Assembly: GCA_009705225.1 (NCBI GenBank)
Contig: WLCQ01000006.1
Location: 1 to 39,827 of the forward strand
Direction: 5' to 3'
DNA: 39,827 bases
Origin: Actinomycetota bacterium
GTDB lineage: Bacteria; Actinomycetota; Acidimicrobiia; Acidimicrobiales; Acidimicrobilacustridaceae
Shown: positions 775-31,700 of the stretch, one piece after another
Layout: every line of letters begins with the position of its first letter
How positions within the stretch are numbered: the first letter of the stretch is position 1
Made by a program: the position numbers and the translations under genes
The notes under the pieces: generated by a model
What the model saw: only the letters and a program-made list of their open reading frames with translations
The model's database searches: none
Told to the model about the DNA's origin: nothing

Positions 775-3033
775 GTGGACGCGAGCGCTCGAGCATCTTC
801 GAATCCCGCGTCAAAAGGCGGCGTCGACAACGAAGACCTTCACTGGTGGAAACCATCGCCCATCGCCCCGTCAGGCCATGATCAATCTGCAAGCGGGAAC
901 TCGGGCAGCGCCACCACAGGCACCTCAGTTCGCCGTGCGGCCCGAACCGAATCGACCATCGTCCCCCGGTCGTTTGCACATCTTCCCGTCCTCGATGGCC
1001 TCAGAGGTCTTGCGGTCGTTGCCGTAGTCCTCTTTCATTTCGCCCCGGATCTGGTTCCCGGTGGATTCCTCGGTGTCGACATCTTCTTCGTCCTGAGTGG
1101 CTTTCTCCTCACCTCACTCGTTCTCGTCGAGCATCACAACAAGGCTCGAATCTCGATGAGCGGATTCTGGATCCGTCGGATCCGACGACTACTCCCAGCA
1201 GCGTTGGTGACTGTTGTGGTGAGCGTCGCTATCGCATTCATTCTCGAACCAGATTTCACGCGCAGCACGCTCCGTGGTGAGGCACTCGCCGCCATCACGT
1301 ACGTCTCGAACTGGTGGACCATCGGCCACGGGCAGTCCTACGCGTCGTCGTTCGGACCCCAATCACCGGTCGCGCATTTCTGGTCGCTCGCTGTCGAGGA
1401 GCAGTTCTACCTCCTGTTCCCTTTCCTCATCGTTGGCCTGGGAGTTGCCGTCCGAATCGCGATTCGTCGGAAACTCCCTCGTCCGAAACTGCATCGACTC
1501 TCTGTTCTACTGCTCATCGTCGCGGTCGTGGGCACCATTGCGTCAGCCATCGACATGGTGCTCATCCACACACCGCAGACCGATCCGTCTCGCGAATATC
1601 TGGGGACCGATACGCGCGTTCAGACGATCCTCGTCGGCGTTGGCCTCGCTTGTCTCTGGTATCTAAAGCCGAAACGCCGGGACACCCGACCGGCGATGGC
1701 AGCGATCGGAGGAGGCGTGGTTCTCCTCTCCTTACTGTTGCTCGCGATCGCACTTGCCGACTTCCGGAGCGATTGGCTCTATCGCGGAGGGTTCACCCTC
1801 ATTGCGATTGGAATCGCTGCTCTCATCTGGGTGCTGGCCCGTCACGGTTCTCCCGTCACCAATTGGGTGCTCGAAAGCCTTCCAATGCGCCGCATTGGCG
1901 AGGTCTCGTACGGGCTCTACCTCTGGCACTGGCCGGTGATGGTGTTCCTGAACCCTCAGCGCACTGGTCTCGACGGAATCGCGTTGTTCACCCTTCGCGT
2001 GATCGTCACGGTGGCTGCCACGATTGCGTCATACATCTTCGTCGAGCGACCCCTGCGCCGGCCCCGCGGATCGCAGGAGCCCCGGCCGGGCACGCGTGAG
2101 GCGCAACTTCGTAATCGTCAGGCTCTCAAGGGTTGGGGTAGCGCGTCTCTGGCCGCGGTGCTCTGTGTTCTGGTCCTCACCGTGGGTCCCGTCGTTGGGG
2201 GTTCCACCTCGACCGCGACTCCCCCCTCCACGTCACCGACCGTGGTCACCACTCCACCCGGGGAGCTTCCCGCTGCGCTTCCCTACACCGCGCTCTGGAT
2301 CGGCGACTCGGTTATGTGGACTTTGGGAGGTGGAGGACCGATCGTGTTCCCGCAGCCGGACTCCTACACATCACCATTCGATCCAGCAGAACTCGTGATC
2401 TGGAACCGAGCGGTTTACCCGTGCGAGATCCTGCGATATCCGTCGAGATTCAACGGACTCCTGCGCGCGCATAACACCAACTGCGACAACAACGATTGGG
2501 CCGTTGCGAACGATGAGTTGAGGCCACAGATCATCGTCTTCAGTGCTGTGGTGAGCGATACCTATGACCGCTACGTGAATGGTCGTCTCGTTGAGTTCGG
2601 GACGCCGGAGTTCGATCAGATTTATCTCGACGCCCTCGACCGGGCGCTCACCCCGCTCGCTGTTCACCTCCCACAGATCGTCCTGCTCGACCAACCCCTG
2701 CCCTTCACCGTCTACGAGCCGAACGGCAGGCCTTCGGAGAACTGGCGTGTCATACATATGGGTGAGCTCTTCCGTCGATATGCGGCGAACCACCCTCGGG
2801 TAAGTGTGGTGGACCTCAAACCCATCGTCTGCCCTACAGATCCGTGCTCGAACCGAACTCCCGATGATCAAGTGATCCGGAACGACGGTCTCCACTTCAC
2901 CCGGGCCGGCATGGAACTGCTCTCGCCTTCACTCTCCAACGCCATCATCGCCGCTGCCCGCTCAACGGGGATTCCTCCCGTGGCAGCCGAAGCCTCCCCG
3001 CCCGAAACACAGCCGGCGGGTGCCACGCAGTGA
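775..3033 (+). CDS. Acyltransferase family 3 with C-terminal SGNH hydrolase-like domain
   Basis: The 752-residue protein has a cytoplasmic Ser/Thr/Pro-rich head (about 1-65), then the acyltransferase-3 membrane domain. That domain starts at LPVLDGLRGLAVVAVVLFHF (about residue 70) and includes HFWSLAVEEQFYLLFPF. Residues about 470-500 form a Thr/Ser/Pro-rich linker. A periplasmic SGNH domain follows with block I Gly510-Asp511-Ser512 and the block V pair Asp704/His707 (DGLH). Fused AT3-SGNH proteins O-acylate exopolysaccharide, lipopolysaccharide or peptidoglycan; the membrane part supplies the acyl donor and the SGNH part transfers it. The GTG start is backed by TACCTT 6 nt upstream. The target glycan is unknown. 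Confidence 0.9.
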   Translation: MDASARASSNPASKGGVDNEDLHWWKPSPIAPSGHDQSASGNSGSATTGTSVRRAARTESTIVPRSFAHLPVLDGLRGLAVVAVVLFHFAPDLVPGGFLGVDIFFVLSGFLLTSLVLVEHHNKARISMSGFWIRRIRRLLPAALVTVVVSVAIAFILEPDFTRSTLRGEALAAITYVSNWWTIGHGQSYASSFGPQSPVAHFWSLAVEEQFYLLFPFLIVGLGVAVRIAIRRKLPRPKLHRLSVLLLIVAVVGTIASAIDMVLIHTPQTDPSREYLGTDTRVQTILVGVGLACLWYLKPKRRDTRPAMAAIGGGVVLLSLLLLAIALADFRSDWLYRGGFTLIAIGIAALIWVLARHGSPVTNWVLESLPMRRIGEVSYGLYLWHWPVMVFLNPQRTGLDGIALFTLRVIVTVAATIASYIFVERPLRRPRGSQEPRPGTREAQLRNRQALKGWGSASLAAVLCVLVLTVGPVVGGSTSTATPPSTSPTVVTTPPGELPAALPYTALWIGDSVMWTLGGGGPIVFPQPDSYTSPFDPAELVIWNRAVYPCEILRYPSRFNGLLRAHNTNCDNNDWAVANDELRPQIIVFSAVVSDTYDRYVNGRLVEFGTPEFDQIYLDALDRALTPLAVHLPQIVLLDQPLPFTVYEPNGRPSENWRVIHMGELFRRYAANHPRVSVVDLKPIVCPTDPCSNRTPDDQVIRNDGLHFTRAGMELLSPSLSNAIIAAARSTGIPPVAAEASPPETQPAGATQ

Positions 3034-3130
3034 CCAAACGGCAGGCAGCGGAAGCGGAGGGTGTGCGTGGCACACTTTATGGAAGAGCCAGAATGCCGGT
3101 GTCCGTCTTCTTCTACCTGAGGGGGCTTCG

Positions 3131-5221
3131 ATGACAACAACGATCGAGCACCTCGATGACAACGGGGCCGGGTCAGGTGACCAGACCGGCGCAGACAGCG
3201 CCCCGGACGCTGCTTCGGAGAAGACCCGGCCGGGACGAGTGGCTCACATGCCAGCGCTCGACGGTATGCGCGGCTTATTCGTGATCATCGGGCCGCTGGC
3301 CTACCACTTCGCTCCCTACTGGATTCCCGGGGGCATCCTCGGCATCGACCTTTTCTTCGTTCTCTCGAGTTTCCTCATCGTCACCATTCTGCTGAACGAA
3401 CATGACCGGACTGATCAGGTCGACGTCGGTAGTTATGCATCCCGACGGGTTCGCCGTCTTCTCCCCGCCCTTGTGGCCACGTTCATCGCCACGGCGTTCG
3501 TCACGGCATTCATCCTCGACGTCTCCCGGATCCCGAAGTGGACCGGCGGCATCACTGCAGCAATGAGCTATGTCGCGAACTGGCGTGAGATCTTCGCCGG
3601 GACCAACTATTTCGACGCGAGCCAGTACTCGAATCCCCAGCCGTTCAGGCACGTCTGGTCCTTCGCAATCGAAGAGCAGTTCTACCTGTTCGCCCCGTTC
3701 TTCATCATCATCTGTCTCAAATGGTTCTCGAAGCGCTGGCTCACGATCATCTCGGTCGGAGGAGCTGTCGTGTCAGCGATCTGGATGTCCGTCCTCTTCG
3801 ACCCGAACAATCCGCAAACAATTTCACGTGCCTACTACGGCACCGACACCAGAGCGTTCGCCCTCTTGCTCGGCATTGCCATGGCAGCGGTTTGCAACCA
3901 ATACGGTCCACCGCGAACGAAGGTCGGACACTGGATCACCCAGTTCATGGGGCTCATCTCAACCGGAGTGTTCATTTATCTGATGCTTACGGTCAGTGAG
4001 AAGACCAGTTGGATGTTCGAGTACGGAGGATTCTTCCTCGTTGCCGTGCTTTCGGTCTTCATGACGAGAGCCGTCTCCATGCCGAGTGGTTGGCTGCACG
4101 GCATATATCAGAACCGCTTCCTCATGTGGGCTGGCCGTCTCGGGTTCGGGCTGTACCTCTACCACTGGCTGGTCTTCATCGCGATCGATAGCGATCGGTC
4201 CGCCGACAAGCCCGGTTTCAATAATCCACGCGACATGATTCTCGGCTTCGGCCTCACCTTCCTGCTGGCCTGGGCCAGTTACCGCTGGATCGAAAAGCCA
4301 TTCATCAAAGGTCGTTGGCCCGGATGGAAGCTGGTCGCCGGGCTCAGTGGCGGCATCATCATCTCTCTCACGCTTCTTCTCTACGCGAATGCGGTTCGCA
4401 CACCCAAGGTCTCTGCACTGAACGGCGTTCCTGCGCAGGGCACAACCCCGATCGCTCTGGGCAAGAACAGCCCCTGTGTGGCTCCAGCCGGGAGCGACCC
4501 CGTGCGCATCCTCGTCGTCGGCGATTCCGTGATGGTGCAACTCGGCGCTGCGCTGCGTGATTGGTGCGCCAGTCATCCCGGCCAGATCATGGTGATGTCC
4601 GACGCCGAACTCGGCTGCGGCACCACCCGTGGCGGCGACAAGAAGTACGAGGACGGTCCCGGACCAGTGAGCCCGGTCTGCAGTACATGGGCGGATCCGG
4701 TCGATCCGCTTCTCGTTCCCGACCCGGACATCGTCTCGTGGGTCACCTCCATCGACACGTATCACCCCGACGTCGTGCTTTCGTACGGCAGCCCCTGGGA
4801 CACCATCGACCGGCGTATCCCGCAGGGTGGCGATCAATGGTTACGACCCGGCGACCCCGTCTACGACGACTACATCCGATCCGAGTACTCGGAGGCGCTC
4901 TCGATCCTCTCGGCACATGGAGCATCGATCGCCTGGCTCAAGACCGCACACCTGAACCGATCGAGCCCATACAACTCGCCGGACCGCATCGATCGACTCA
5001 ATGAGATCGTGCTGCCCCTCGTCGAGGCCCTACCAAGGTCTGTGGTCATCGACTATCAGGACTACCTCGGCCCAGTCGGTGGAGCGAACGACGTCGCCAC
5101 CCGTGACGACGGGGTCCACATCCGGGCCGATCATCTCCAGACAGTGGTCGACTGGTTGGCCCCGCAACTGATCGCCGCGAAACAGATTCCGGAACCCAAC
5201 CCCGGCGGCGTTGCGAACTGA
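3131..5221 (+). CDS. Acyltransferase family 3 with C-terminal SGNH hydrolase-like domain (second copy)
   Basis: The 696-residue protein is a paralogue of the upstream gene. It has a polar head, acyltransferase-3 domain from LPALDGMRGLFVIIGPLAYH (about residue 40), the motif HVWSFAIEEQFYLFAPF, about ten hydrophobic helices, and an extracytoplasmic SGNH domain with Gly464-Asp465-Ser466 and Asp660/His663 (DGVH). I chose ATG 3131 because GAGGGGG sits about 6 nt upstream; the in-frame GTG at 3020 overlaps the previous gene and adds no conserved sequence. A 97-nt gap follows the previous gene, so co-transcription is likely but the gap has room for a promoter. It probably acylates a cell-surface polymer. 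Confidence 0.9.
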   Translation: MTTTIEHLDDNGAGSGDQTGADSAPDAASEKTRPGRVAHMPALDGMRGLFVIIGPLAYHFAPYWIPGGILGIDLFFVLSSFLIVTILLNEHDRTDQVDVGSYASRRVRRLLPALVATFIATAFVTAFILDVSRIPKWTGGITAAMSYVANWREIFAGTNYFDASQYSNPQPFRHVWSFAIEEQFYLFAPFFIIICLKWFSKRWLTIISVGGAVVSAIWMSVLFDPNNPQTISRAYYGTDTRAFALLLGIAMAAVCNQYGPPRTKVGHWITQFMGLISTGVFIYLMLTVSEKTSWMFEYGGFFLVAVLSVFMTRAVSMPSGWLHGIYQNRFLMWAGRLGFGLYLYHWLVFIAIDSDRSADKPGFNNPRDMILGFGLTFLLAWASYRWIEKPFIKGRWPGWKLVAGLSGGIIISLTLLLYANAVRTPKVSALNGVPAQGTTPIALGKNSPCVAPAGSDPVRILVVGDSVMVQLGAALRDWCASHPGQIMVMSDAELGCGTTRGGDKKYEDGPGPVSPVCSTWADPVDPLLVPDPDIVSWVTSIDTYHPDVVLSYGSPWDTIDRRIPQGGDQWLRPGDPVYDDYIRSEYSEALSILSAHGASIAWLKTAHLNRSSPYNSPDRIDRLNEIVLPLVEALPRSVVIDYQDYLGPVGGANDVATRDDGVHIRADHLQTVVDWLAPQLIAAKQIPEPNPGGVAN

Positions 5222-5227
5222 GACGCG

Positions 5228-5264
5228 CCACCGGCCCGCCGATCGAATCGGTACGGGCCGGTGG
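5228..5264. terminator. Hairpin terminator between convergent genes
   Basis: A perfect 11-bp inverted repeat (CCACCGGCCCG at 5228-5238 with its complement at 5254-5264) encloses a second 5-bp stem (CCGAT/ATCGG, 5239-5243 and 5247-5251). It starts 6 nt after the acyltransferase stop and lies before the convergent MaoC gene. There is no U-tract, as is usual for high-GC actinobacterial terminators. It could work in both directions. Confidence 0.75.
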
Positions 5265-5308
5265 GCATTGTTCTGAAGAGACAGCGCCGACCCAAACGGG
5301 TCGGACGG

Positions 5309-5782
5309 TCAGCCCCGCTTCGGGGTGTACAGAACCTGCATGCGGTACAGCAGTGCCGGACGCTCGGAACCCACGGCGCCGATCTCGGCCTCGGTGGTGA
5401 TGAGCGTGCCCTTCGGTTTGGCATCAGCGCGCACCACACGTGAGCGTGCATGCACCTCAGCACCTGCAGGAACTGGTGAGAGGAAACGAAGCGATTCAGC
5501 GCCGTAGTTCACGGCGCTGCCGAATCCGGTGACCGAGACCGGCATGGTGACGAGCTTCGGCATGAGGCTCAGCGTGAGGAATCCGTGGGCGACAGGTCCG
5601 CCGAACGGGCTCTCCTTGATCGATCGCTCAACATCCACATGGATCCACTGACGGTCACCGGTGAGTTCGGCGAAGTCGTTGATCATCTGCTGGGTTACGA
5701 CGATGGTGGAACCCCACTCCCCGAAGGTTTCGGAGGCGAGAGCGTTGATGGCATCGATGTCGTCGAAGGCCACAGAAGTCAT
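5309..5782 (-). CDS. MaoC-like (R)-specific enoyl-CoA hydratase
   Basis: The 157-residue protein is a single hot-dog MaoC domain. The hydratase-2 motif is clear: TGDRQWIHVDVERS followed by FGGPVAHGFLTLS, containing the catalytic Asp and His. The family hydrates trans-2-enoyl-CoA to (R)-3-hydroxyacyl-CoA in side-chain or fatty-acid degradation, usually as a dimer. I chose ATG 5782 because longer starts would run into the divergent dehydrogenase gene and give no conserved residues; only a weak AGAGAA precedes it. It is divergent from the acyl-CoA dehydrogenase gene, which suggests a shared regulatory region and one pathway. Confidence 0.9.
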   Translation of the reverse strand: MTSVAFDDIDAINALASETFGEWGSTIVVTQQMINDFAELTGDRQWIHVDVERSIKESPFGGPVAHGFLTLSLMPKLVTMPVSVTGFGSAVNYGAESLRFLSPVPAGAEVHARSRVVRADAKPKGTLITTEAEIGAVGSERPALLYRMQVLYTPKRG

Positions 5783-5935
5783 TCGGTTCTCTTTTCGATT
5801 TCGAGCGACCATCGTTCTGGATGGCCGGACGGGAGAGGCAACATATGCCTCATGGCGCCGCGATAGTACCGGCATGGTGTCAACCGGAAGAAACCTCGTT
5901 CGGCAAAACCGCCGCCCATTGCCTACGATCGGACT
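5783..5935. promoter_or_regulatory. Divergent promoter region of MaoC and acyl-CoA dehydrogenase genes
   Basis: This 153-nt region holds an inverted repeat with 6-bp arms, GAGGCA/TGCCTC, spaced by 5 nt (5835-5851), which is a possible operator. A -10 element TACGAT (5924-5929) lies exactly 6 nt before the ATG at 5936, the leaderless arrangement. TTGACA occurs on the minus strand near 5877-5882, but no -10 element stands at proper spacing from it. Confidence 0.45.
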
Positions 5936-7141
5936 ATGACCGTGCTCATTCCTGAATCGCTCGTCAGTGATCGAATTGATCAACTCCTCGCTGAACTCGA
6001 CCCCCGGACCTGCGAGAACCAGGAGTTCCGCGGCCGGCAGTACGACCTCGGGCTCGCGTGGGTGCATTTCCCCGAGGGATTCGGCGGGCTGAACCTCGCT
6101 CCGAACCATCAGAAGGAGATCGACAGTCGCCTGAAGGCTGCCGGTGCAGCCTCTGTCGACTCCCCGTACTTCTTCGGACTCACCATGGCCGGACCCACGA
6201 TCGTCACCCATGGCGACGAAGAGACCAAGGGCGAGCGACTCCGCCGCATCTTCACCGGCGAGGACTACTGGTGCCAGCTCTTCAGCGAGCCGGGCGCCGG
6301 CTCAGATCTCGCCGGACTCGCGTGCAAGGCCGTACGCGATGGTGATGAATGGGTCATCACCGGCCAGAAGGTCTGGAACACCCTCGCTCATCTCGCCAAC
6401 CGCGGCATGCTCGTGGCCCGAACCGATTCGGAAGCTCCCAAGCACAAGGGCATGACCTACTTCGCGCTTGACATGACCGCACCGGGCGTCGAGGTGCGTC
6501 CGCTTCGTCAGATGACCGGCGAGGCCGAATTCAACGAGGTGTACCTCACCGAGGTTCGTGTTCCCGATTCCGATCGCATCGGCGACGTGGGCGAGGGCTG
6601 GCGGGTTTCGATGACCACGCTTGCCAACGAGCGCACAACGATCGGTGGTGGCGGAGGTGGCACCCCGCAGCCCGGTTCCGGCGCTATTGCCGAGGCAGTC
6701 CGCATCTGGAACGACAGCGAGACCGAACAGAACCCTGTTCTCAAGGATCAACTCATGCAGTTGTGGGTCGAGGCTGAAGTGCTGCGCCTTACCAATGTGC
6801 GCGCCTCACAGAATCGCAAGGCCGGTAATCCCGGTCCCGAGGGATCCATCGCCAAGCTGCAGTTCGCCGAGGTCAACAAGCGCATCTACGCCTTCTGCGT
6901 CGACCTACTCGGTGCGCGGGCTCTCGTTGACTACGACTACACAATGCGCCGCAGCGAATCGCTGGGCCTCACCGGTCCCCCGGGGTCCGCTCGAAAGATG
7001 TTCCTTCGTGCCCGGGCCAATTCCATCGAGGGAGGCACCTCCGAGATCCAGCGCAACATCTTGGGTGAACGAGTCCTCGGCCTGCCCGGCGAGCCGCGCG
7101 TTGACAAGGATCTCCCCTGGAGTCAGGTCCCCCGCAACTGA
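5936..7141 (+). CDS. Acyl-CoA dehydrogenase (FadE-type)
   Basis: The 401-residue flavoprotein oxidises an acyl-CoA to the 2,3-enoyl-CoA. It shows the FAD/substrate signature CQLFSEPGAGSDLA (residues 113-126), WVITGQKVWNTLAHLANRG, a central beta domain, and the C-terminal signature IEGGTSEIQRNILGERVLGLP. Glu365 in that signature sits where medium-chain dehydrogenases keep their catalytic base, but assigning it as the base here is tentative. Length is normal for the family. No clear Shine-Dalgarno is seen; TACGAT 6 nt upstream supports a leaderless ATG. The stop overlaps the next start (TGATG), so it is translationally coupled to a thioesterase. The acyl substrate is not evident; this subtype is common in actinobacterial steroid and branched-chain degradation. 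Confidence 0.93.
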   Translation: MTVLIPESLVSDRIDQLLAELDPRTCENQEFRGRQYDLGLAWVHFPEGFGGLNLAPNHQKEIDSRLKAAGAASVDSPYFFGLTMAGPTIVTHGDEETKGERLRRIFTGEDYWCQLFSEPGAGSDLAGLACKAVRDGDEWVITGQKVWNTLAHLANRGMLVARTDSEAPKHKGMTYFALDMTAPGVEVRPLRQMTGEAEFNEVYLTEVRVPDSDRIGDVGEGWRVSMTTLANERTTIGGGGGGTPQPGSGAIAEAVRIWNDSETEQNPVLKDQLMQLWVEAEVLRLTNVRASQNRKAGNPGPEGSIAKLQFAEVNKRIYAFCVDLLGARALVDYDYTMRRSESLGLTGPPGSARKMFLRARANSIEGGTSEIQRNILGERVLGLPGEPRVDKDLPWSQVPRN

Positions 7142-21285: not shown

Positions 21286-22491
21286 TCAGGCGCGATCGAA
21301 TTCGATGTGCACAGCGTCATAGGCGCGAGTGAAGGTCGCTCCGAGCACTCGAGGTTCGGTTCCGGGGACGAGTCTCCAGTTCGGGATTCGTCGTAGGAGT
21401 TCCTCGAACATCACGCGGATCTCGAGCCTCGCCAGCGAAGCTCCGAGGCAGAAATGTGTACCGAACCCGAACGCCACATGGTGGTTGTGGGATCGGGTCA
21501 CGTCGAACACGTTCGGATTTTCGAACATCGATTCATCGCGGTTCGCGGCGCCGTACATGAGAAGAACCTGATCACCTGCGTGCATTTCACGACCGTGGAA
21601 CTCGTGGTCCCTCGTGACAGTGCGGCGCATGTTCAGGATGGGGGTCACCCATCGGATGAACTCCTCGACCGCAGTATCGGCGAGGATCTGCGGCTGCGCG
21701 GCCAGCAATTGGCGTTGAGAGTCATCGAGAGCGAGTTCGCGGATAATTGAGCCGATGACCGTTCGGGTGGTCTCCGCTCCGCCATCGAGAAGCAGGATGC
21801 ATTCCGAGATGATCTCTCCCTCGGTCCAGCGTCGCCCGTCGACCTCGGTAGTGGCCCAGATCGAGATGAGGTCGTTCTCAGGTTTTGCGCGGCGCTGCTC
21901 GATGAGTTCCATCACCGTTCCAGCGAACTCCATGATGGCGTTGGTGGAACGCTCCGAGAATGGCGCCGGCGAGCCATCAGGGGGGTTCTGACCCGACTCG
22001 TACATCGTGATCTCCGACCATTCACGCAGCTTCGGCCAGAGTTCTCTCGGGAACCCGAGTTTGTCACCGATGACAATGGCCGGAAGCGGGGAGGCGAGCG
22101 ATTCGATGGCCTCGCAACTGCCGGCATCGATGACGCCATCAATGAGTTCATTCACGAGCAATCGGAGCTCATCTTCGATCTGGCGAACCGCTCTCGGCGT
22201 GAACTGACGAGCCACCAACATGCGCTGCTGCTGGTGATCGGGATCGTCACGATTGATCATGGAGGTGTCGTCACGCTGGTCAGTGGCAGGACGTGATCCA
22301 TCTATCGACGTGTACAGGCCGGTGTTCTTCTCGACGGCGACGATGTCTGCGTAACGAGACACGCCCCAGATGCGGTGCACCGGATCCCAGTGAACGGGAT
22401 CATTGGCCCGCAGCCACGCATACGCATCCCACGGGTCGACGTAGAAGTTCGGATCAAGAAGATTGATCGCTGGCGCTTCGGTGATCGACAT
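21286..22491 (-). CDS. Cytochrome P450 (CYP125/CYP142-like group)
   Basis: The 401-residue soluble P450 inserts oxygen using an external ferredoxin, which is not encoded nearby. Its motifs are I-helix LLLDGGAETTRTV (Glu240-Thr241), ExxR Glu277-Arg280 (EFIRW), and the heme loop FGFGTHFCLGASLAR with ligand Cys348. The region around the heme, with NHHVAFGFGTHFCLGASLAR, resembles actinobacterial CYP124/125/142 proteins that oxidise steroid or branched side chains; exact family needs comparison. ATG 22491 has GGGGGA close upstream, while starts further up enter the regulatory palindrome. It is divergent from a Baeyer-Villiger monooxygenase gene. Confidence 0.93.
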   Translation of the reverse strand: MSITEAPAINLLDPNFYVDPWDAYAWLRANDPVHWDPVHRIWGVSRYADIVAVEKNTGLYTSIDGSRPATDQRDDTSMINRDDPDHQQQRMLVARQFTPRAVRQIEDELRLLVNELIDGVIDAGSCEAIESLASPLPAIVIGDKLGFPRELWPKLREWSEITMYESGQNPPDGSPAPFSERSTNAIMEFAGTVMELIEQRRAKPENDLISIWATTEVDGRRWTEGEIISECILLLDGGAETTRTVIGSIIRELALDDSQRQLLAAQPQILADTAVEEFIRWVTPILNMRRTVTRDHEFHGREMHAGDQVLLMYGAANRDESMFENPNVFDVTRSHNHHVAFGFGTHFCLGASLARLEIRVMFEELLRRIPNWRLVPGTEPRVLGATFTRAYDAVHIEFDRA

Positions 22492-22509
22492 TGGTCCCCC
22501 AGATGTATC

Positions 22510-22525
22510 GAGTCCGATCGGACTC
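22510..22525. promoter_or_regulatory. Perfect 16-bp palindrome in P450/BVMO divergent promoter
   Basis: GAGTCCGATCGGACTC is a perfect, uninterrupted 16-bp palindrome in the 132-nt region between the divergent P450 (22491) and BVMO (22624) genes. It has the size and symmetry of a dimeric repressor site such as TetR or GntR operators. It is 18 nt upstream of the P450 start codon. No regulator gene is adjacent. Confidence 0.6.
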
Positions 22526-22623
22526 CCCCACGGGCCATCGTACGGGAACATGAGCACTGCGGGCCACGGATGTTGGCGACGAACCAACGGGCTTCTCGCC
22601 TACGGTTCTGGAGGGAGGGGAAC

Positions 22624-24234
22624 ATGGACGACACAACACACGAGACGCTCGACGCCGTCATCATCGGGGCAGGGTTCTCGGGTCTCTACATGCTGCAGAA
22701 ACTGCGTTCACTCGGGCTGCGGGTGCATGTGCTCGAAGCGGCTTCTGACGTCGGCGGCACGTGGTGGTGGAACCGCTATCCCGGTGCCCGATGCGATATC
22801 GAGTCCTTCGACTACTCATATTCGTTCGACGCAGATCTCGAGCAAACATGGGAGTGGTCGGAGCGTTACGCGACCCAGCCGGAAATCCTCGCCTATGTCA
22901 ATCATGTCGCCGACCGGTTCGACCTCCGCCGGGACATCAGTTTCGACACCCGCATGCTCGAGGCCCGCTGGAACGACGAAACGACGACGTGGAATCTCAC
23001 CACCGACACTGGTCGCTCGATCGACGCGCACTACTGCATCATGGCGGTCGGTTGTCTCTCGCAGGCGAACCACCCCACGTTCGAAGGGATGGAGGAGTTC
23101 AGCGGACGAACTCTGCACACCGGTGAATGGCCCCACGAGGGAGTTGACGTCACCGGCCTGAGGGTCGGTGTGATCGGGACCGGCTCCTCAGCGATCCAGA
23201 GCATCCCGCTCCTCGCGGAACAAGCAGAGCAGCTCACCGTTTTCCAGCGCACGCCGGCGTTCACCCTTCCCGCCATGAATGCGCCACTCGATCCCGAAAC
23301 CGTGGCTGATTTCAAGGCCCGGTATCGGGAGCACCGCGAGGCCACCCGCCATTCGAACGGCGGCGTTCTCACCACGCTGGCAGAGGAGTCCGCTCTGGCC
23401 GTGGAAGCCGCCGAACGCGACCGGCGGTTCGAAGCCGCGTGGAAGTCCGGAACCCTGTTTGGTCTGCTCTCATCGTTCTCGGATCTCATGATCGACCCGC
23501 AGGCCAACGAACTCGCAGCGCAGTTCGTCCGAGACCAGATCGTCCGGATCGTCGATGATCCCGTGATCGCCGAACGACTCAGTCCTCACTCGTTCCCGAT
23601 CGGCACCAAGCGACTCTGTCTCGACACCGGCTACTACGCGACCTACAACCGACCGAATGTCGAGTTGGTGGACCTGCGCACCGAACCGATCGATCGATTC
23701 ACCGCGACTGGAATGAGCGTTGGTGATCGGGAGATTCCGCTCGATGTCATCGTCTTCGCTACCGGCTTCGACGCTATGACTGGGGCACTCCTCGCTCCCA
23801 GGATCATCGGTCGCGACGGAATCACCCTGAAACAGAAGTGGGCGGAAGGTCCCCGCACCTACCTCGGCATCGCAACCTCGGGGTTCCCGAATCTGTTCAC
23901 CATCACCGGGCCGGGAAGTCCGTCGGTACTGACGAACATGCTCGTTTCCATCGAACAGCACGTCGAGTGGACCGCCGCGTGCATCGAGTGGCTCGAGCAG
24001 CAGGGGGCTGCCTCGATCGAAGCCAATGTCGATGCCGAGAACGGCTGGGCCGACCATGTCACCGAAGTCGCAGGGTTCACGCTCTACCCCACCGGAAATT
24101 CCTGGTATCTGGGTTCGAATATCGAGGGCAAGCCGCGGGTATTCATGCCCTACATCGCCGGCGTTGAGATCTTCCGAACCGTCTGCGATGACGTAGCAGC
24201 GAACGGTTATCGGGGATTCACCATCTCGACCTGA
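22624..24234 (+). CDS. Flavin-containing Baeyer-Villiger monooxygenase (cyclohexanone monooxygenase type)
   Basis: The 536-residue FAD/NADPH enzyme converts ketones to esters or lactones. The first Rossmann motif is GAGFSG (15-20). The BVMO fingerprint FxGxxxHxxxWP is complete: Phe159, Gly161, His165, Trp169, Pro170. The NADPH Rossmann motif is GTGSSA (185-190). Also typical are GGTWWWNRYPGARCDIES and the C-terminal FATGFDAMTGALL. ATG 22624 has GGAGGGAGGGG upstream. It is divergent from the P450 with a shared palindrome, suggesting joint regulation and a pathway of hydroxylation then ring or chain cleavage. Substrate unknown. Confidence 0.95.
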   Translation: MDDTTHETLDAVIIGAGFSGLYMLQKLRSLGLRVHVLEAASDVGGTWWWNRYPGARCDIESFDYSYSFDADLEQTWEWSERYATQPEILAYVNHVADRFDLRRDISFDTRMLEARWNDETTTWNLTTDTGRSIDAHYCIMAVGCLSQANHPTFEGMEEFSGRTLHTGEWPHEGVDVTGLRVGVIGTGSSAIQSIPLLAEQAEQLTVFQRTPAFTLPAMNAPLDPETVADFKARYREHREATRHSNGGVLTTLAEESALAVEAAERDRRFEAAWKSGTLFGLLSSFSDLMIDPQANELAAQFVRDQIVRIVDDPVIAERLSPHSFPIGTKRLCLDTGYYATYNRPNVELVDLRTEPIDRFTATGMSVGDREIPLDVIVFATGFDAMTGALLAPRIIGRDGITLKQKWAEGPRTYLGIATSGFPNLFTITGPGSPSVLTNMLVSIEQHVEWTAACIEWLEQQGAASIEANVDAENGWADHVTEVAGFTLYPTGNSWYLGSNIEGKPRVFMPYIAGVEIFRTVCDDVAANGYRGFTIST

Positions 24235-26491: not shown

Positions 26492-26518
26492 GGGCACCGT
26501 CTCGGTGAACAGGTGCCC
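26492..26518 (+). terminator. Hairpin between SCO6745-family gene and oleA
   Basis: A 7-bp stem GGGCACC/GGTGCCC (26492-26498 and 26512-26518) begins 2 nt after the stop codon. An alternative 5-bp stem CACCG/CGGTG with a 3-nt loop (26495-26507) shares its left arm, so the two cannot form together. Position suggests termination of the upstream gene before the oleA promoter. Confidence 0.55.
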
Positions 26519-26525
26519 GAGGCCC

Positions 26526-26531
26526 TAGCCT
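26526..26531 (+). promoter_or_regulatory. Putative -10 element for leaderless oleA
   Basis: TAGCCT lies exactly 6 nt before the GTG at 26538, matching the TAnnnT-N6-start pattern of leaderless actinobacterial genes. No -35 element is evident. No Shine-Dalgarno precedes the GTG. Confidence 0.45.
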
Positions 26532-26537
26532 GCAGGG

Positions 26538-27551
26538 GTGGCCCCGTTCTCCGCGCTTGACCAGTCGCATATCTGGTCCGTGTCCCATGTCGAAGCTCCG
26601 GAACGGATCAGCTCGGAATGGATCGACGAGCAACTCGCTGAGACCTATACGCGCTGCGGAGTTCGTCCCGGTCTTCTTGCGTCAGTAGCCGGCATCGACG
26701 CGCGTCGCTGGTGGAATGCCGAGACGACCTTCGATGAGGCGGCGGCACTCGCTGGAGCCCGGGCGCTCGAGGAAGCTGGCGTCGCCCCCGACGAAGTCGA
26801 CCTCCTCATCTCGACCTCGGTCTCGAAGCATCATCTCGAACCAAGCGTCGCCTGCGCCGTGCACTACCGGCTCGGACTTGCGGCGACCTGTACGAACTAT
26901 GACCTCGGAAATGCCTGTCTCGGCTTCGTGAACGCGATGACCATCGCATCAATGGCGATCGCCACCGGTCAGGCAAGGGTTGTGCTCATTGTGGACGGAG
27001 AAGGAAGCCGTCAGGTCCAGACCGAGACCATCGAGCGCCTGCAGTCCCCTGATACCGAGGTCACCGATATCTTCGAGCAGTTCGCCTCCCTCACCATTGG
27101 TTCGGGTGCAGCAGCAATGGTGATGGGTGCGCCTCGAGATGGCGGCCATCGATTCGTCGGCGCCGTCACCCGAGCCGCTACCAAACATCATGAGCTCTGC
27201 ATCGGCGACCTCAAGTCGATGCGGACCGACACCGCTGCGCTTCTCGAATCCGGTCTCGAACTGGCCGAGCAGACCTTCAGTGCAGCGCTCGAATCGGGAT
27301 GGCAATGGCGCAATTGCGACCGCTACGTACTCCATCAGGTCTCGAAGGTGCACACGAACAAACTCTGTGAACTCCTCGGGATCGACCAGAAACAGGTGCC
27401 GCTCAGCTATCCGGAGTTCGGCAACATCGGCCCGGCCGCACTTCCGTACACACTCTCGACGATCTCAGATGAACTCCAGACCGACGATCGCGTGCTCCTC
27501 ATGGGCATCGGCTCCGGCCTGAATTGCTCCATGGCCGAACTCGTCTGGTGA
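26538..27551 (+). CDS. oleA: OleA: thiolase-fold condensing enzyme for head-to-head hydrocarbon synthesis
   Basis: The 337-residue protein joins two fatty acyl-CoAs by a non-decarboxylative Claisen condensation to a 2-alkyl-3-ketoacid. OleA-specific residues are all present: Glu101 (LEPSVA, the Glu117 equivalent), Cys127 (DLGNACLGFVNAM, Cys143 equivalent), His266 (LHQVSKVHT) and Asn296 (YPEFGNIGPAALP), numbering comparisons being to Xanthomonas OleA. The early block SVSHVEAP and VAGIDARRWW also match OleA rather than FabH. GTG 26538 keeps that block and has TAGCCT 6 nt upstream. The next gene, the oleB-oleC fusion, starts 6 nt after its stop, so these are one operon. Confidence 0.95.
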   Translation: MAPFSALDQSHIWSVSHVEAPERISSEWIDEQLAETYTRCGVRPGLLASVAGIDARRWWNAETTFDEAAALAGARALEEAGVAPDEVDLLISTSVSKHHLEPSVACAVHYRLGLAATCTNYDLGNACLGFVNAMTIASMAIATGQARVVLIVDGEGSRQVQTETIERLQSPDTEVTDIFEQFASLTIGSGAAAMVMGAPRDGGHRFVGAVTRAATKHHELCIGDLKSMRTDTAALLESGLELAEQTFSAALESGWQWRNCDRYVLHQVSKVHTNKLCELLGIDQKQVPLSYPEFGNIGPAALPYTLSTISDELQTDDRVLLMGIGSGLNCSMAELVW

Positions 27552-27557
27552 GCGGGC

Positions 27558-30110
27558 GTGCCCCAACGTCGTACCGGCAGCACTGATCGTCCCGAGGCCT
27601 CGGACTGGGAGCGATGGGGCGTAGATCCGGCATGGAATCGCCGAGTCACGCTGACCACATCGGCGGGCACTGTGGAGTGGAGCATTCTCGATACCGGACA
27701 CGGATCGAAGGGCACCATCGTCTGTGTGCACGGCAATCCCACATGGGGTTACCTGTGGCGAAATCTCCTCCGTGAGTCAGCGCACGGTTGGCGTGTCATC
27801 GCCGTCGATCAAACGGGTATGGGTTGGTCGCAACGCGCCGGGTCGCGAACCTTGGAACAACGGGTCGAGGAACTTGTCGCCTTCTGCCAGCAGGAAGCAC
27901 CCGGACCTCTCATCCTCGCGGCCCACGACTGGGGTGGACCCGTCGCAATGGGAGCGGCAGGTGAACTCGACGTGCGGGCGGTCGTTCTGACCAACACCGC
28001 CGTCGCGAAGCCTCAATCCGTCTCCGTTCCGCCGCTCATCGCAGTCGCCAGGAGCGCTGTCGGCCTGACATGTGCTCGCACACCGCTGTTCGTGCGCGGC
28101 ACGTCACATATGACCGATCGGTCACACCGAGAGGCGCTGAATGCGCCGTACCGATCGGCGGCTCGGCGTAGCGCTGTCGCTGACTTCGTCGCCGATATTC
28201 CGCTGCAACCAAATGACACGTCGTTCGTTGCCCTTGAGCGCTCCGCATCGAATTTCGAAGCGCTCCGATCGCGATCGATACCGGTACTTCTCCTCTGGGG
28301 TGGTAGCGACCCGGTCTTCCACGATCGATTTCTCGCCGACCTTCTGACTCGAGCTCCCCACGCCGATGTGCACCGGTTCGCCGATGCAGGTCATCTGGTG
28401 GCGCTCGATGAGCCCATCGGACCCATGGTCACCCGGTGGCTCGACACCCATCTCGCCAACGGCACCATCACGCTCGCCGAATCCGCGAACCCTGCTGCGC
28501 ACATCCGAGAGCCGCATGAACCAACTTCCATGCACCCGGTAGGGGAAGACTCCACCGATTTCGCAGTCACTACAGCAAACACCTTCTCCCCGATCACCAC
28601 AGCGCTCATGGAGCGGGCGTCGGACCCTTCGTGTGCGTACGAAGGGCCCGACGGCGCTCGAAGCTGGAGCGCACTCAACGCTGCCGCCGAACGAATCGCT
28701 CGGAGACTCGTGCGTCATGGCGTGCAACCGGGCGATCGAATCGCGCTGCTCGTGCCGCCCGGAATACAGCTTCTTGAAGCAGTCCACGGTGCCTGGCGGG
28801 CTGGTGCAGTGGTCGTCATCGCCGACAGCGCTCTCGGCGCTTCGGGCCTCCGGTCTGCATTCAGGAGCGCCACGCCGGCTTGGGTCATCGGTACACCCAA
28901 GAATCTGCTGGCGGCAAAGATTCTGCGGATGACGCCGGGTGCCGGAGCATTCTCGATGGGCCGACTCCCCGGAGCCGTAGATCTCTCGGGTTCGGCGCTC
29001 CGATCCAACCCGAACGAATTTTCGCTTCGACTCCCCAACCTTGATCCTGATTCTGCGGCCGCAGTAGTCCACACCTCGGGGGCCACCGGTCCGGCAAAGC
29101 CGGTCGTTTACACGCACGCTGCTCTTGCTGCCCAGCGTGACGTGGTGCGTGAGGCGTTCACCCTCGATCCCGCCCACGGATTCATCTCCTCCTTCGCTCC
29201 GTTCATCCTTCTCGGTCCAGCCCTAGGCGTCCCGTGTGTCCTCCCCGAGGGCGACGTCCTCGCTCCCGCCGAACTCGACTTCGATCAATTCGCTGATGCC
29301 TGCCGATCTTCGGATTCGGACGTGGCATGGCTCTCCCCAGCATCGGCCCGCACGATCGTTCGCACCGCCAATGGTCGACAGGTTCCTCTGCGCCTCGTGA
29401 TGCTCGCCGGCGCACCCATCCCGCTCGCACTCGCTGAGGACATCCACCGCGTCACCAGCGCCGAGGTTCGCGCACCGTACGGAATGACCGAAGCAATGCC
29501 CGTGACTGACGGAATAGGAGCGATGAATCGAGTTCCGTGGGGAACCGATACGGGAAGGGCTCTCTCCGGAGCCGAGATCATCATCGTGCCCTTCCGCGAA
29601 CCCCGGTTGGCGCAGGTCGCGACAGGTTGTTGGGGCGAGATCCTCGTGTCGTGTCCATGGATGCGTTCCGGATACGACAGAAGATGGGGAGTCGATGAGT
29701 CATCAACGATTGAGCGCGACGGAAAGTTGTTCCACAGGACCGGCGATGTCGGGGCGATCGACGATCAGGGCCACCTCATCCAACTTGGTCGAGTGCAGCA
29801 CGTGATCACCACCGCAACACAGGCGCTTCCATGTGCCGTGGTCGAACAATCAATTGCCGACCAGATCAGTGCTGAGGTGGCGGCGGTGGGCGTTGGCCCC
29901 GATGGGGCGCAGGTCGTCGTCGTCGTAGTGAGCGGTACCGGTTCGTTGCGTACTGCCGACTCCGAACTCACTGCCGATGTACGTGCTGCATCGCCGCATT
30001 CCATTGCTGCGGTACTCATCGGCGAACTCCCTGTTGACATCCGTCATCAGTCGAAGATCCGGCGCGATGTCCTTGCCGAATCGGCCGCCGAACTGCTTGC
30101 GGGCCGATGA
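27558..30110 (+). CDS. oleBC: OleBC fusion: beta-lactone decarboxylase plus beta-lactone synthetase
   Basis: The 850-residue protein joins two enzymes. Residues about 25-300 are an OleB alpha/beta hydrolase: HGNPTWGYLWR (58-68), nucleophile Asp124 in AAHDWGGP, acid Asp251 in WGGSDPV, and His279 in DAGHLV. Residues about 300-335 are a linker. Residues about 336-850 are an OleC adenylate-forming domain: P-loop HTSGATGPAK (505-514), APYGMTEAMPVT, TGDVGAIDDQGHLIQLGR and a C-terminal Lys in HQSKIRR. OleC closes the 2-alkyl-3-hydroxyacid to a beta-lactone using ATP; OleB removes CO2 to give a cis-olefin. Fusion should channel the reactive lactone. OleB-OleC fusions are known in other Actinobacteria such as Micrococcus. 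The GTG start has no strong Shine-Dalgarno and is probably coupled to oleA. The stop overlaps oleD. Confidence 0.95.
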   Translation: MPQRRTGSTDRPEASDWERWGVDPAWNRRVTLTTSAGTVEWSILDTGHGSKGTIVCVHGNPTWGYLWRNLLRESAHGWRVIAVDQTGMGWSQRAGSRTLEQRVEELVAFCQQEAPGPLILAAHDWGGPVAMGAAGELDVRAVVLTNTAVAKPQSVSVPPLIAVARSAVGLTCARTPLFVRGTSHMTDRSHREALNAPYRSAARRSAVADFVADIPLQPNDTSFVALERSASNFEALRSRSIPVLLLWGGSDPVFHDRFLADLLTRAPHADVHRFADAGHLVALDEPIGPMVTRWLDTHLANGTITLAESANPAAHIREPHEPTSMHPVGEDSTDFAVTTANTFSPITTALMERASDPSCAYEGPDGARSWSALNAAAERIARRLVRHGVQPGDRIALLVPPGIQLLEAVHGAWRAGAVVVIADSALGASGLRSAFRSATPAWVIGTPKNLLAAKILRMTPGAGAFSMGRLPGAVDLSGSALRSNPNEFSLRLPNLDPDSAAAVVHTSGATGPAKPVVYTHAALAAQRDVVREAFTLDPAHGFISSFAPFILLGPALGVPCVLPEGDVLAPAELDFDQFADACRSSDSDVAWLSPASARTIVRTANGRQVPLRLVMLAGAPIPLALAEDIHRVTSAEVRAPYGMTEAMPVTDGIGAMNRVPWGTDTGRALSGAEIIIVPFREPRLAQVATGCWGEILVSCPWMRSGYDRRWGVDESSTIERDGKLFHRTGDVGAIDDQGHLIQLGRVQHVITTATQALPCAVVEQSIADQISAEVAAVGVGPDGAQVVVVVVSGTGSLRTADSELTADVRAASPHSIAAVLIGELPVDIRHQSKIRRDVLAESAAELLAGR

Positions 30111-31060
30111 AAGTTCTGGTCACGGGGGGTTCGAGCCTTCTCGGGGCAACCGTCGCGAACCTCCTCGTGACGAGAGGCGATGAGGTCACCTGTTTCCAGC
30201 GCAAGCATTCAGGCACACATGCCACCGATCACCTCGGCGACATCACCGATGCTTCGTCACTCCTCGCTGCCGCATCGGGCCATGAAGCAGTTATCCATCT
30301 GGCAGCACTCGTCGTTCCGAAAGCTCCTTGGAGTCGGATGCAAGCCGTGAACATCGAAGGCACTCGCAATGCCCGAAGCGCAGCTGAGCAGTGCGGCAGA
30401 TTCGTGCATATCTCGAGCCCATCAGTCGCGTTCCACGACGTCGCCAGCGTGGGCGAGGGAGCGAATGCCCCGCTCTACGCCGGGCGTGACGGCTACACCA
30501 GATCCAAAGCAATTGCTGAACAGGAAGTACTCACTGGGCCACGCGTACCCACCGTCGTGATACGCCCACATCTCGTCTGGGGTCCGGGCGATACTCAGCT
30601 CATTGGTCGCATCGTCGACAGAGCCCGCTCACATCGACTGGCTCTTCCCGACCATGGCAGAGCACTCGTCGACACGACCTACGTCGACGATGCAGCATCA
30701 GCAATCGTGGCTGCTCTCGATGTCTGTCATCCCGGGGCCGATGCGGTCAATCACGCGTGGGTGGTGACCGGATCAGAACCGCGGCCACTGCGCGATCTCG
30801 TGGACTCCATCCTGCATGCCGCCGGCGTCACCGAACGTCCTCGCTCGGTACCGGCGCCACTCGCCGCTGCGGCTGGTCGGGTGCTGGAACGGCTCTGGCC
30901 CGGAGCGGAGCCGCCGCTCACCCATTTCGCTGCTCGCCAACTCTCGGTGGCGCACTGGTTCGACCAGCGAGAGACACAGCGGGTGCTGCGGTGGTCTCCC
31001 ACCGTCGGTCTCGACGAAGGTTTCCGGCGCCTCGCCGACTGGTTCGCCGCTTCATCGTGA
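30107..31060 (+). CDS. oleD: OleD: NADPH-dependent 2-alkyl-3-ketoacid reductase
   Basis: The 317-residue extended short-chain dehydrogenase reduces the OleA product to the 2-alkyl-3-hydroxyacid. The NAD(P) motif is TGGSSLLG (6-13). The catalytic residues are a Ser in HISSPSV (103-104) and Tyr130/Lys134 (YTRSK). PHLVWGPGDTQLIGRIVDRAR is typical of the 3-beta-HSD-like OleD family. ATG 30107 overlaps the oleBC stop in ATGA, so translation is coupled. With OleA and OleBC this completes the four-activity pathway. Confidence 0.93.
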   Translation: MKVLVTGGSSLLGATVANLLVTRGDEVTCFQRKHSGTHATDHLGDITDASSLLAAASGHEAVIHLAALVVPKAPWSRMQAVNIEGTRNARSAAEQCGRFVHISSPSVAFHDVASVGEGANAPLYAGRDGYTRSKAIAEQEVLTGPRVPTVVIRPHLVWGPGDTQLIGRIVDRARSHRLALPDHGRALVDTTYVDDAASAIVAALDVCHPGADAVNHAWVVTGSEPRPLRDLVDSILHAAGVTERPRSVPAPLAAAAGRVLERLWPGAEPPLTHFAARQLSVAHWFDQRETQRVLRWSPTVGLDEGFRRLADWFAASS

Positions 31061-31070
31061 CTCGCAGCGG

Positions 31071-31076
31071 TACGGT
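31071..31076 (+). promoter_or_regulatory. Putative -10 element for leaderless GNAT gene
   Basis: TACGGT lies exactly 6 nt before ATG 31083. The gene has no Shine-Dalgarno and starts 22 nt after the oleD stop, so it may be transcribed on its own as well as by read-through from the ole operon. Confidence 0.4.
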
Positions 31077-31082
31077 GCGCGC

Positions 31083-31700
31083 ATGACAGAGTTCGAGATC
31101 GGCCGCCTTGAGGCGGGTTCGCTTCCGATGGCCATCGCCACCACCAGCCGGGCGTTCTGGCCCGACCCACTCTTCGGGCACTTCGCCCGTGACGTCGTGC
31201 AGGAACATCGCATGCTTCCCACATTCCTCGGCGCGCTCCTACGCGATGCGGCCGACCACGGCGAGATCTGGGTCGCAACCCGCGATGGTGTCGTGGTCGG
31301 ATCAGCCTCGTGGCTGCAACCAGGAACGATGCCGCGAACTCGTTCCCGAGAGAGTCGCATCACAAGGGCCTGCGCGAGCGCACTTCTCACCGGTCGCAAT
31401 CGGCGCAGCGGTCTTGCCCTGCTTTCAGCAGTTGAGCGTCAGCATCCCACCGAGGCGCACTGGTATCTCCCACTGCTCGGCATCGACCCCAAGTGGCAGG
31501 GGCGCGGCATTGGTACTGCCCTGTTGAACCCGAAGCTGCGCGAATGCGACGCCGATGGCCTACCCGCCTACCTCGAAACCCAGAAGCCGGAAAATGTCCC
31601 GTACTACGAACGATTCGGATTCCGGGTGACCGATGTGATCGAGCTGCCGGCGACCCCGCCGATCTGGCTCATGTGGCGCGATCCAAAACCGCTCGAGTAG
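31083..31700 (+). CDS. GNAT-family N-acetyltransferase
   Basis: The 205-residue protein has the acetyl-CoA pyrophosphate loop of GNAT enzymes, LLGIDPKWQGRGIGTALL (Q/RxxGxG/A), and the family's C-terminal NVPYYERFGFRVTDVIEL. Substrate cannot be predicted. The start is ATG 31083 (MTEFEIGRLE), supported by TACGGT 6 nt upstream; an earlier in-frame start lies inside oleD. The stop codon is separated from the convergent SDR stop by a single base. Whether it has any part in the ole pathway is unknown. Confidence 0.87.
   Translation: MTEFEIGRLEAGSLPMAIATTSRAFWPDPLFGHFARDVVQEHRMLPTFLGALLRDAADHGEIWVATRDGVVVGSASWLQPGTMPRTRSRESRITRACASALLTGRNRRSGLALLSAVERQHPTEAHWYLPLLGIDPKWQGRGIGTALLNPKLRECDADGLPAYLETQKPENVPYYERFGFRVTDVIELPATPPIWLMWRDPKPLE

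Follow-up and report, generated by a model that had tools for sequence, protein, structure and literature searches.

An oleA-oleBC-oleD locus predicted to direct olefin synthesis in Acidimicrobiia

The stretch of DNA analysed here (hereafter the window; 39,827 nucleotides) carries an intact and complete Ole set, confirmed at the sequence level, in the order oleA-oleBC-oleD. We consider it highly likely that this locus is a self-contained olefin operon, whose mRNA is probably leaderless and starts from a promoter immediately in front of oleA. The enzyme set itself is ordinary and known; what we add is its occurrence in Acidimicrobiia and its counts there. An earlier reading made from the sequence only (the sequence-only reading) had placed all four Ole activities in these three consecutive genes, and the complete set was indeed present and recurred together in essentially every related locus. 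Chance co-occurrence is excluded, because OleA scored above the cut-off of its profile, no control protein passed it, and the four enzymes recur together.

All three open reading frames are intact and lie on the + strand. The first, oleA (26538-27551), encodes 337 amino acids assigned by sequence as a head-to-head (non-decarboxylative Claisen) acyl-CoA condensing thiolase; its frame opens just 3 codons 5′ of a GTG, which is the sole candidate start before the conserved N-terminus. A gap of 6 nt separates the oleA stop (27551) from the GTG start of oleBC (27558-30110), a fusion gene of 850 codons that comprises an OleB domain (approximately residues 1-301, 27558-28460), predicted to be a beta-lactone decarboxylase of the haloalkane-dehalogenase type, a flexible interdomain linker (residues 302-340, 28461-28577) and an OleC domain (residues 341-850, 28578-30110), a putative beta-lactone synthetase of the ANL family. 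The end of oleBC overlaps by 4 nt (ATGA, 30107-30110) with oleD (30107-31060), which encodes an extended SDR of 317 amino acids, the candidate 2-alkyl-3-oxoalkanoate reductase. The sequence-only reading had these open reading frames, their strand and coordinates exactly, as well as the 6-nt gap followed by the 4-nt overlap, and every catalytic residue that it had named for OleA, OleB, OleC and OleD was found at its position. An ole cluster was defined as OleBC and OleD homologues within at most 5 kb of an OleA with the published signature; in the window both adjoin such an OleA, in one direction.

In a profile search, OleA reached 405 bits against the curated NF006720 family model (cut-off 285), and the same model found no protein above its cut-off in 14 control genomes. 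The best match in the PDB was the Xanthomonas campestris OleA (E 4.6e-82), and the catalytic residues are E101, C127, H266 and N296. The OleA signature EP..[AS]-x(14,18)-D..NACL, as defined in PMC7158056, was matched at residues 101-128. OleA is predicted, by analogy with its characterised homologues, to act as a non-decarboxylative condenser of two long acyl-CoAs. A reservation comes from a 2020 screen of two actinobacterial OleA clades: activity was clear in one, but in the other it was weak and limited to a single homologue (PMC7064751).

The OleB half of OleBC matched the Abhydrolase_1 and haloalkane dehalogenase models and has the features of a haloalkane-dehalogenase-like hydrolase, with an Asp nucleophile, a second Asp and a His (D124, D251, H279). 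The OleC half gave an AMP-binding match of 147 bits, carries the P-loop TSGATGPAK at residues 506-514 and adopts an ANL fold according to Foldseek (best E 2e-32); its adenylation motifs and the C-terminal residues D827, R829, H830 and K833, the last of them the catalytic Lys, are invariant among relatives. The AlphaFold model of the whole fusion had a mean pLDDT of 87.5 and a pTM of 0.85, and the linker, with pLDDT below 50 at residues 302-340, is disordered in the model. In OleD, the Y-x3-K residues Y130 and K134 are kept in every relative that covers them. The profile search of each domain against the Ole families, proposed by the sequence-only reading, had a divided outcome: OleA passed, whereas OleC scored 193 of 900 bits and 154 of 850 bits against the Xanthomonas and Shewanella models of the NCBIfam olefin beta-lactone synthetase, and OleD 251 bits, with a cut-off of 580, against the OleD model that was its best NCBIfam match, all of these below the cut-offs of equivalog models whose names point to Xanthomonas- and Shewanella-type proteins as their basis. 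We claim no membership for OleC and OleD at so narrow an equivalog level and assign them by best match, conserved residues and context.

The reactions, the product and its location can be proposed from characterised homologues. Head-to-head joining of two long-chain acyl-CoAs by OleA would yield a 2-alkyl-3-oxo acid, and its reduction by OleD the corresponding 2-alkyl-3-hydroxy acid. The OleC half would then activate this hydroxy acid with ATP and close the ring to a beta-lactone, and decarboxylation of the beta-lactone by the OleB half would give a cis internal alkene, with the membrane as its expected final location.

OleA and FabH have the thiolase fold and the C/H/N catalytic set in common, and no FabH above cut-off was found in the window's own draft genome, so that one might read OleA as a FabH-type ketosynthase that serves fatty acid synthesis and only by chance stands beside an unrelated ligase and reductase. 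The sequence-only reading had taken a grouping of OleA with FabH as its refutation. In a tree of 49 OleAs, X. campestris included, and 17 FabHs of the same order, the OleAs instead formed one clade separate from the FabHs (support 0.94). Glu101 was present in 49/49 OleAs and missing from all 17 FabHs, and the full signature was matched by 46/49 OleAs against 0/17 FabHs. True FabHs are present separately in 28/37 genomes of the family, including most of the genus, and the four-enzyme neighbourhood of OleA is conserved, which leaves the FabH reading hardly credible.

It is also conceivable that the pathway ends at a beta-lactone natural product, with an inactive or slow OleB domain, since Actinobacteria with oleACD and without oleB produce beta-lactones, e.g., lipstatin (PMC7064751). 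We regard this as very unlikely. OleB is present and fused, its residues N60, W63, D124, W125, D251 and H279 showed no variation in 47 relatives, and no tailoring genes were found inside the ole cluster. Across 45-49 loci, virtually no variation was seen in the catalytic residues of the four enzymes. All parts are under purifying selection, with dN/dS between the window and a related locus (L030) of 0.06 (OleA) and 0.10 (OleB, OleC and OleD alike), values that are rough because synonymous sites are close to saturation. A decay of OleB toward a beta-lactone pathway should relax its constraint relative to OleC; none was seen. The invariant OleB triad, together with purifying selection equal to that on OleC, suggests that the expected end product is an olefin rather than a beta-lactone. 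Of the two products named by the sequence-only reading, the cis-olefin is therefore supported and the beta-lactone alternative is not favoured. A further possibility, and an improbable one, is that the Ole set acts on unusual acyl groups and makes another hydrocarbon (polyunsaturated, branched or short-chain) in place of ordinary C25-C31 olefins. Olefin chain length depends on the specificity of OleA and on the fatty acids available (PMC7158056, PMC7064751) and the window's OleA is strongly diverged from the X. campestris enzyme, but nothing specific indicates an unusual substrate. For the ordinary olefin product that we prefer, the range C25-C31 is an analogy, as chain length is not readable from sequence; the olefins of Micrococcales span C21-C29, overlapping this range, and were found in every ole-bearing Micrococcales genus with lipids analysed (PMC7158056).

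As for the supply of acyl groups, fatty acid synthesis in the genus is of type II, with a FabF-like ketosynthase in the window's genome and FabH in most genus members. A type I fatty acid synthase as the acyl-CoA source was rejected (0/37 family genomes), and so was a loss of FabH tied to OleA, hinted at by the window's draft genome, since the genus has FabH. Given the FabH counts in the family and genus, the lack of FabH in this draft, which is 94% complete, probably reflects missing sequence.

The single operon proposed by the sequence-only reading is supported: the three genes very probably form a single transcription unit, and gene order within the ole block is constant where the neighbours vary. 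Directly upstream of oleA, the segment GGCCCTAGCCTGCAGGG (26508-26537, + strand) contains a -10-like TAGCCT 6 nt before the GTG. In the window's clade, 13/13 loci have an element of the form TAnnnT 6-9 nt before the oleA start, even with differing genes upstream, although these are not 13 independent events, several being closely related. Such an element occupies the same place in 1/35 other OleA loci and precedes 1.9% of random start codons. It is carried by relatives in families f1 and f23 and is absent before the oleA of Ilumatobacter nonamiensis. What this pattern most likely marks is a putative leaderless promoter, with oleA as the first gene of the operon. A scan for sigma-70 promoters and terminators found none. 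Downstream, a GNAT gene begins 22 nt past oleD and has its own TACGGT element (31061-31085) 6 nt before its start (31083), and a similar element stands at the same place in the three related loci L030, L031 and L084. As the GNAT gene has its own promoter-like element, the unit probably ends at oleD; the recurrence of such elements suggests that the lineage may often use leaderless promoters. The upstream HTH_67/SCO6745-family gene and the downstream GNAT, SDR and amidohydrolase genes flank ole only in L030 (the same as L083), L031 and L084. The HTH_67 and GNAT neighbours were rejected as operon members, because this neighbourhood is common to the four closest loci only and promoter-like elements stand before oleA and before GNAT.

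Compared with known systems, X. campestris oleABCD (OleA structure 3ROW and relatives) has the same four activities, and its OleA aligns with that of the window over nearly the full length, with the same catalytic residues. In X. campestris, OleB and OleC are separate genes. Its ole region holds two additional genes, and the paper that notes this reports an oleBC fusion only in Actinobacteria and Granulosicoccus (PMC7064751). The A-BC-D layout and its chemistry are already published for Micrococcales, whose oleABCD clusters with an oleBC fusion (e.g., Mobilicoccus) have the same gene content and fusion as the window, and the same chemistry is expected (PMC7064751, PMC7158056). The window differs from them in belonging to another class of Actinomycetota, in its strongly diverged sequences and in the clade-specific leaderless-type promoter element of its oleA. 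A Micrococcales-like cluster (L159), used for the sequence comparison in place of M. luteus, has the same A, B, C, D order, with identities of 45%, 38%, 34% and 47%, respectively. The lipstatin and nocardiolactone clusters (oleACD type) have OleA-, OleC- and OleD-like steps in common with the window and are without OleB, whereas the window encodes an intact and constrained OleB domain.

Within the window's genus, OleBC was found in 19/21 genomes, and one of the remaining two (G003) has a fragment scoring like OleA, so that at least 20/21 carry some of the set. OleA was detected in 28/198 sampled genomes of the order (19/133 genera) and in 24/396 genomes of a phylum-wide draw, with some genomes common to both samples. 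On every contig with enough sequence around oleA, the B, C and D genes are present as well, and a fusion of B and C is seen in each of these loci with the exception of L036, where a frame break in the linker may be an assembly error, and L116-L120. The latter are Actinomycetota clusters with separate oleB and oleC that fall outside the fused group in the tree, a placement consistent with a single origin of the fusion common to Acidimicrobiia and Micrococcales-like clusters. In two other loci (L108 and L109), oleA is divergent from oleBC-oleD, and their OleAs are without the published signature and keep the catalytic residues. A horizontal transfer between two families (f1 and f23), hinted at by the OleA tree, received no support from the concatenated tree.

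Among the named relatives, MAGs labelled Microthrixaceae are the nearest, and a freshwater habitat is inferred from the reservoir- and lake-type names of related MAGs. The sequence-only reading was right to place the lineage near Acidimicrobiia: the cluster is also present in Ilumatobacter nonamiensis YM16-303, a cultured member of this class. According to a 2020 survey, oleABCD was confined, among Gram-positive orders, to Micrococcales (PMC7158056). Our literature search, mostly without subscription papers, found the ole set unrecorded in Acidimicrobiia, with an earlier notice elsewhere possible, and the literature found held no product, expression or enzyme activity for any acidimicrobiian ole set. 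With its occurrence in many families of the acidimicrobiian order, in other Actinomycetota and in a cultured species, the cluster extends the likely biological alkene producers to aquatic bacteria so far uncounted. More tentatively, at a little under even chances, olefin synthesis may be an old trait of aquatic Acidimicrobiia, kept almost throughout the species genomes of this small-genome genus under its own conserved leaderless promoter, and these plankton an unrecognised source of long-chain alkenes.

Among plasmid records there was no OleA, only weak ligase or hydrolase matches, and phage records gave one OleA match, MT835738.1, a sequence from human faeces labelled 'Bacteriophage sp.' with complete oleA, B, C and D at 2530-7114. 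We did not accept it as a phage ole set: with 74% GC, all the ole genes and an ORF whose start reads like DNA polymerase III delta, it was judged bacterial, and is probably a Micrococcales-like bacterial sequence filed as phage (the L159 used above). Elsewhere in the window, two adjacent large Acyl_transf_3 genes of 752 and 733 amino acids lie at 775-5221, the second starting within the end of the first. At 21286-24234, there is an overlap between a cytochrome P450 ORF (- strand) and the extended 5′ end of an ORF for a Baeyer-Villiger-type flavin monooxygenase; the start of the monooxygenase gene is probably near 22620, roughly the point from which it is homologous to relatives.
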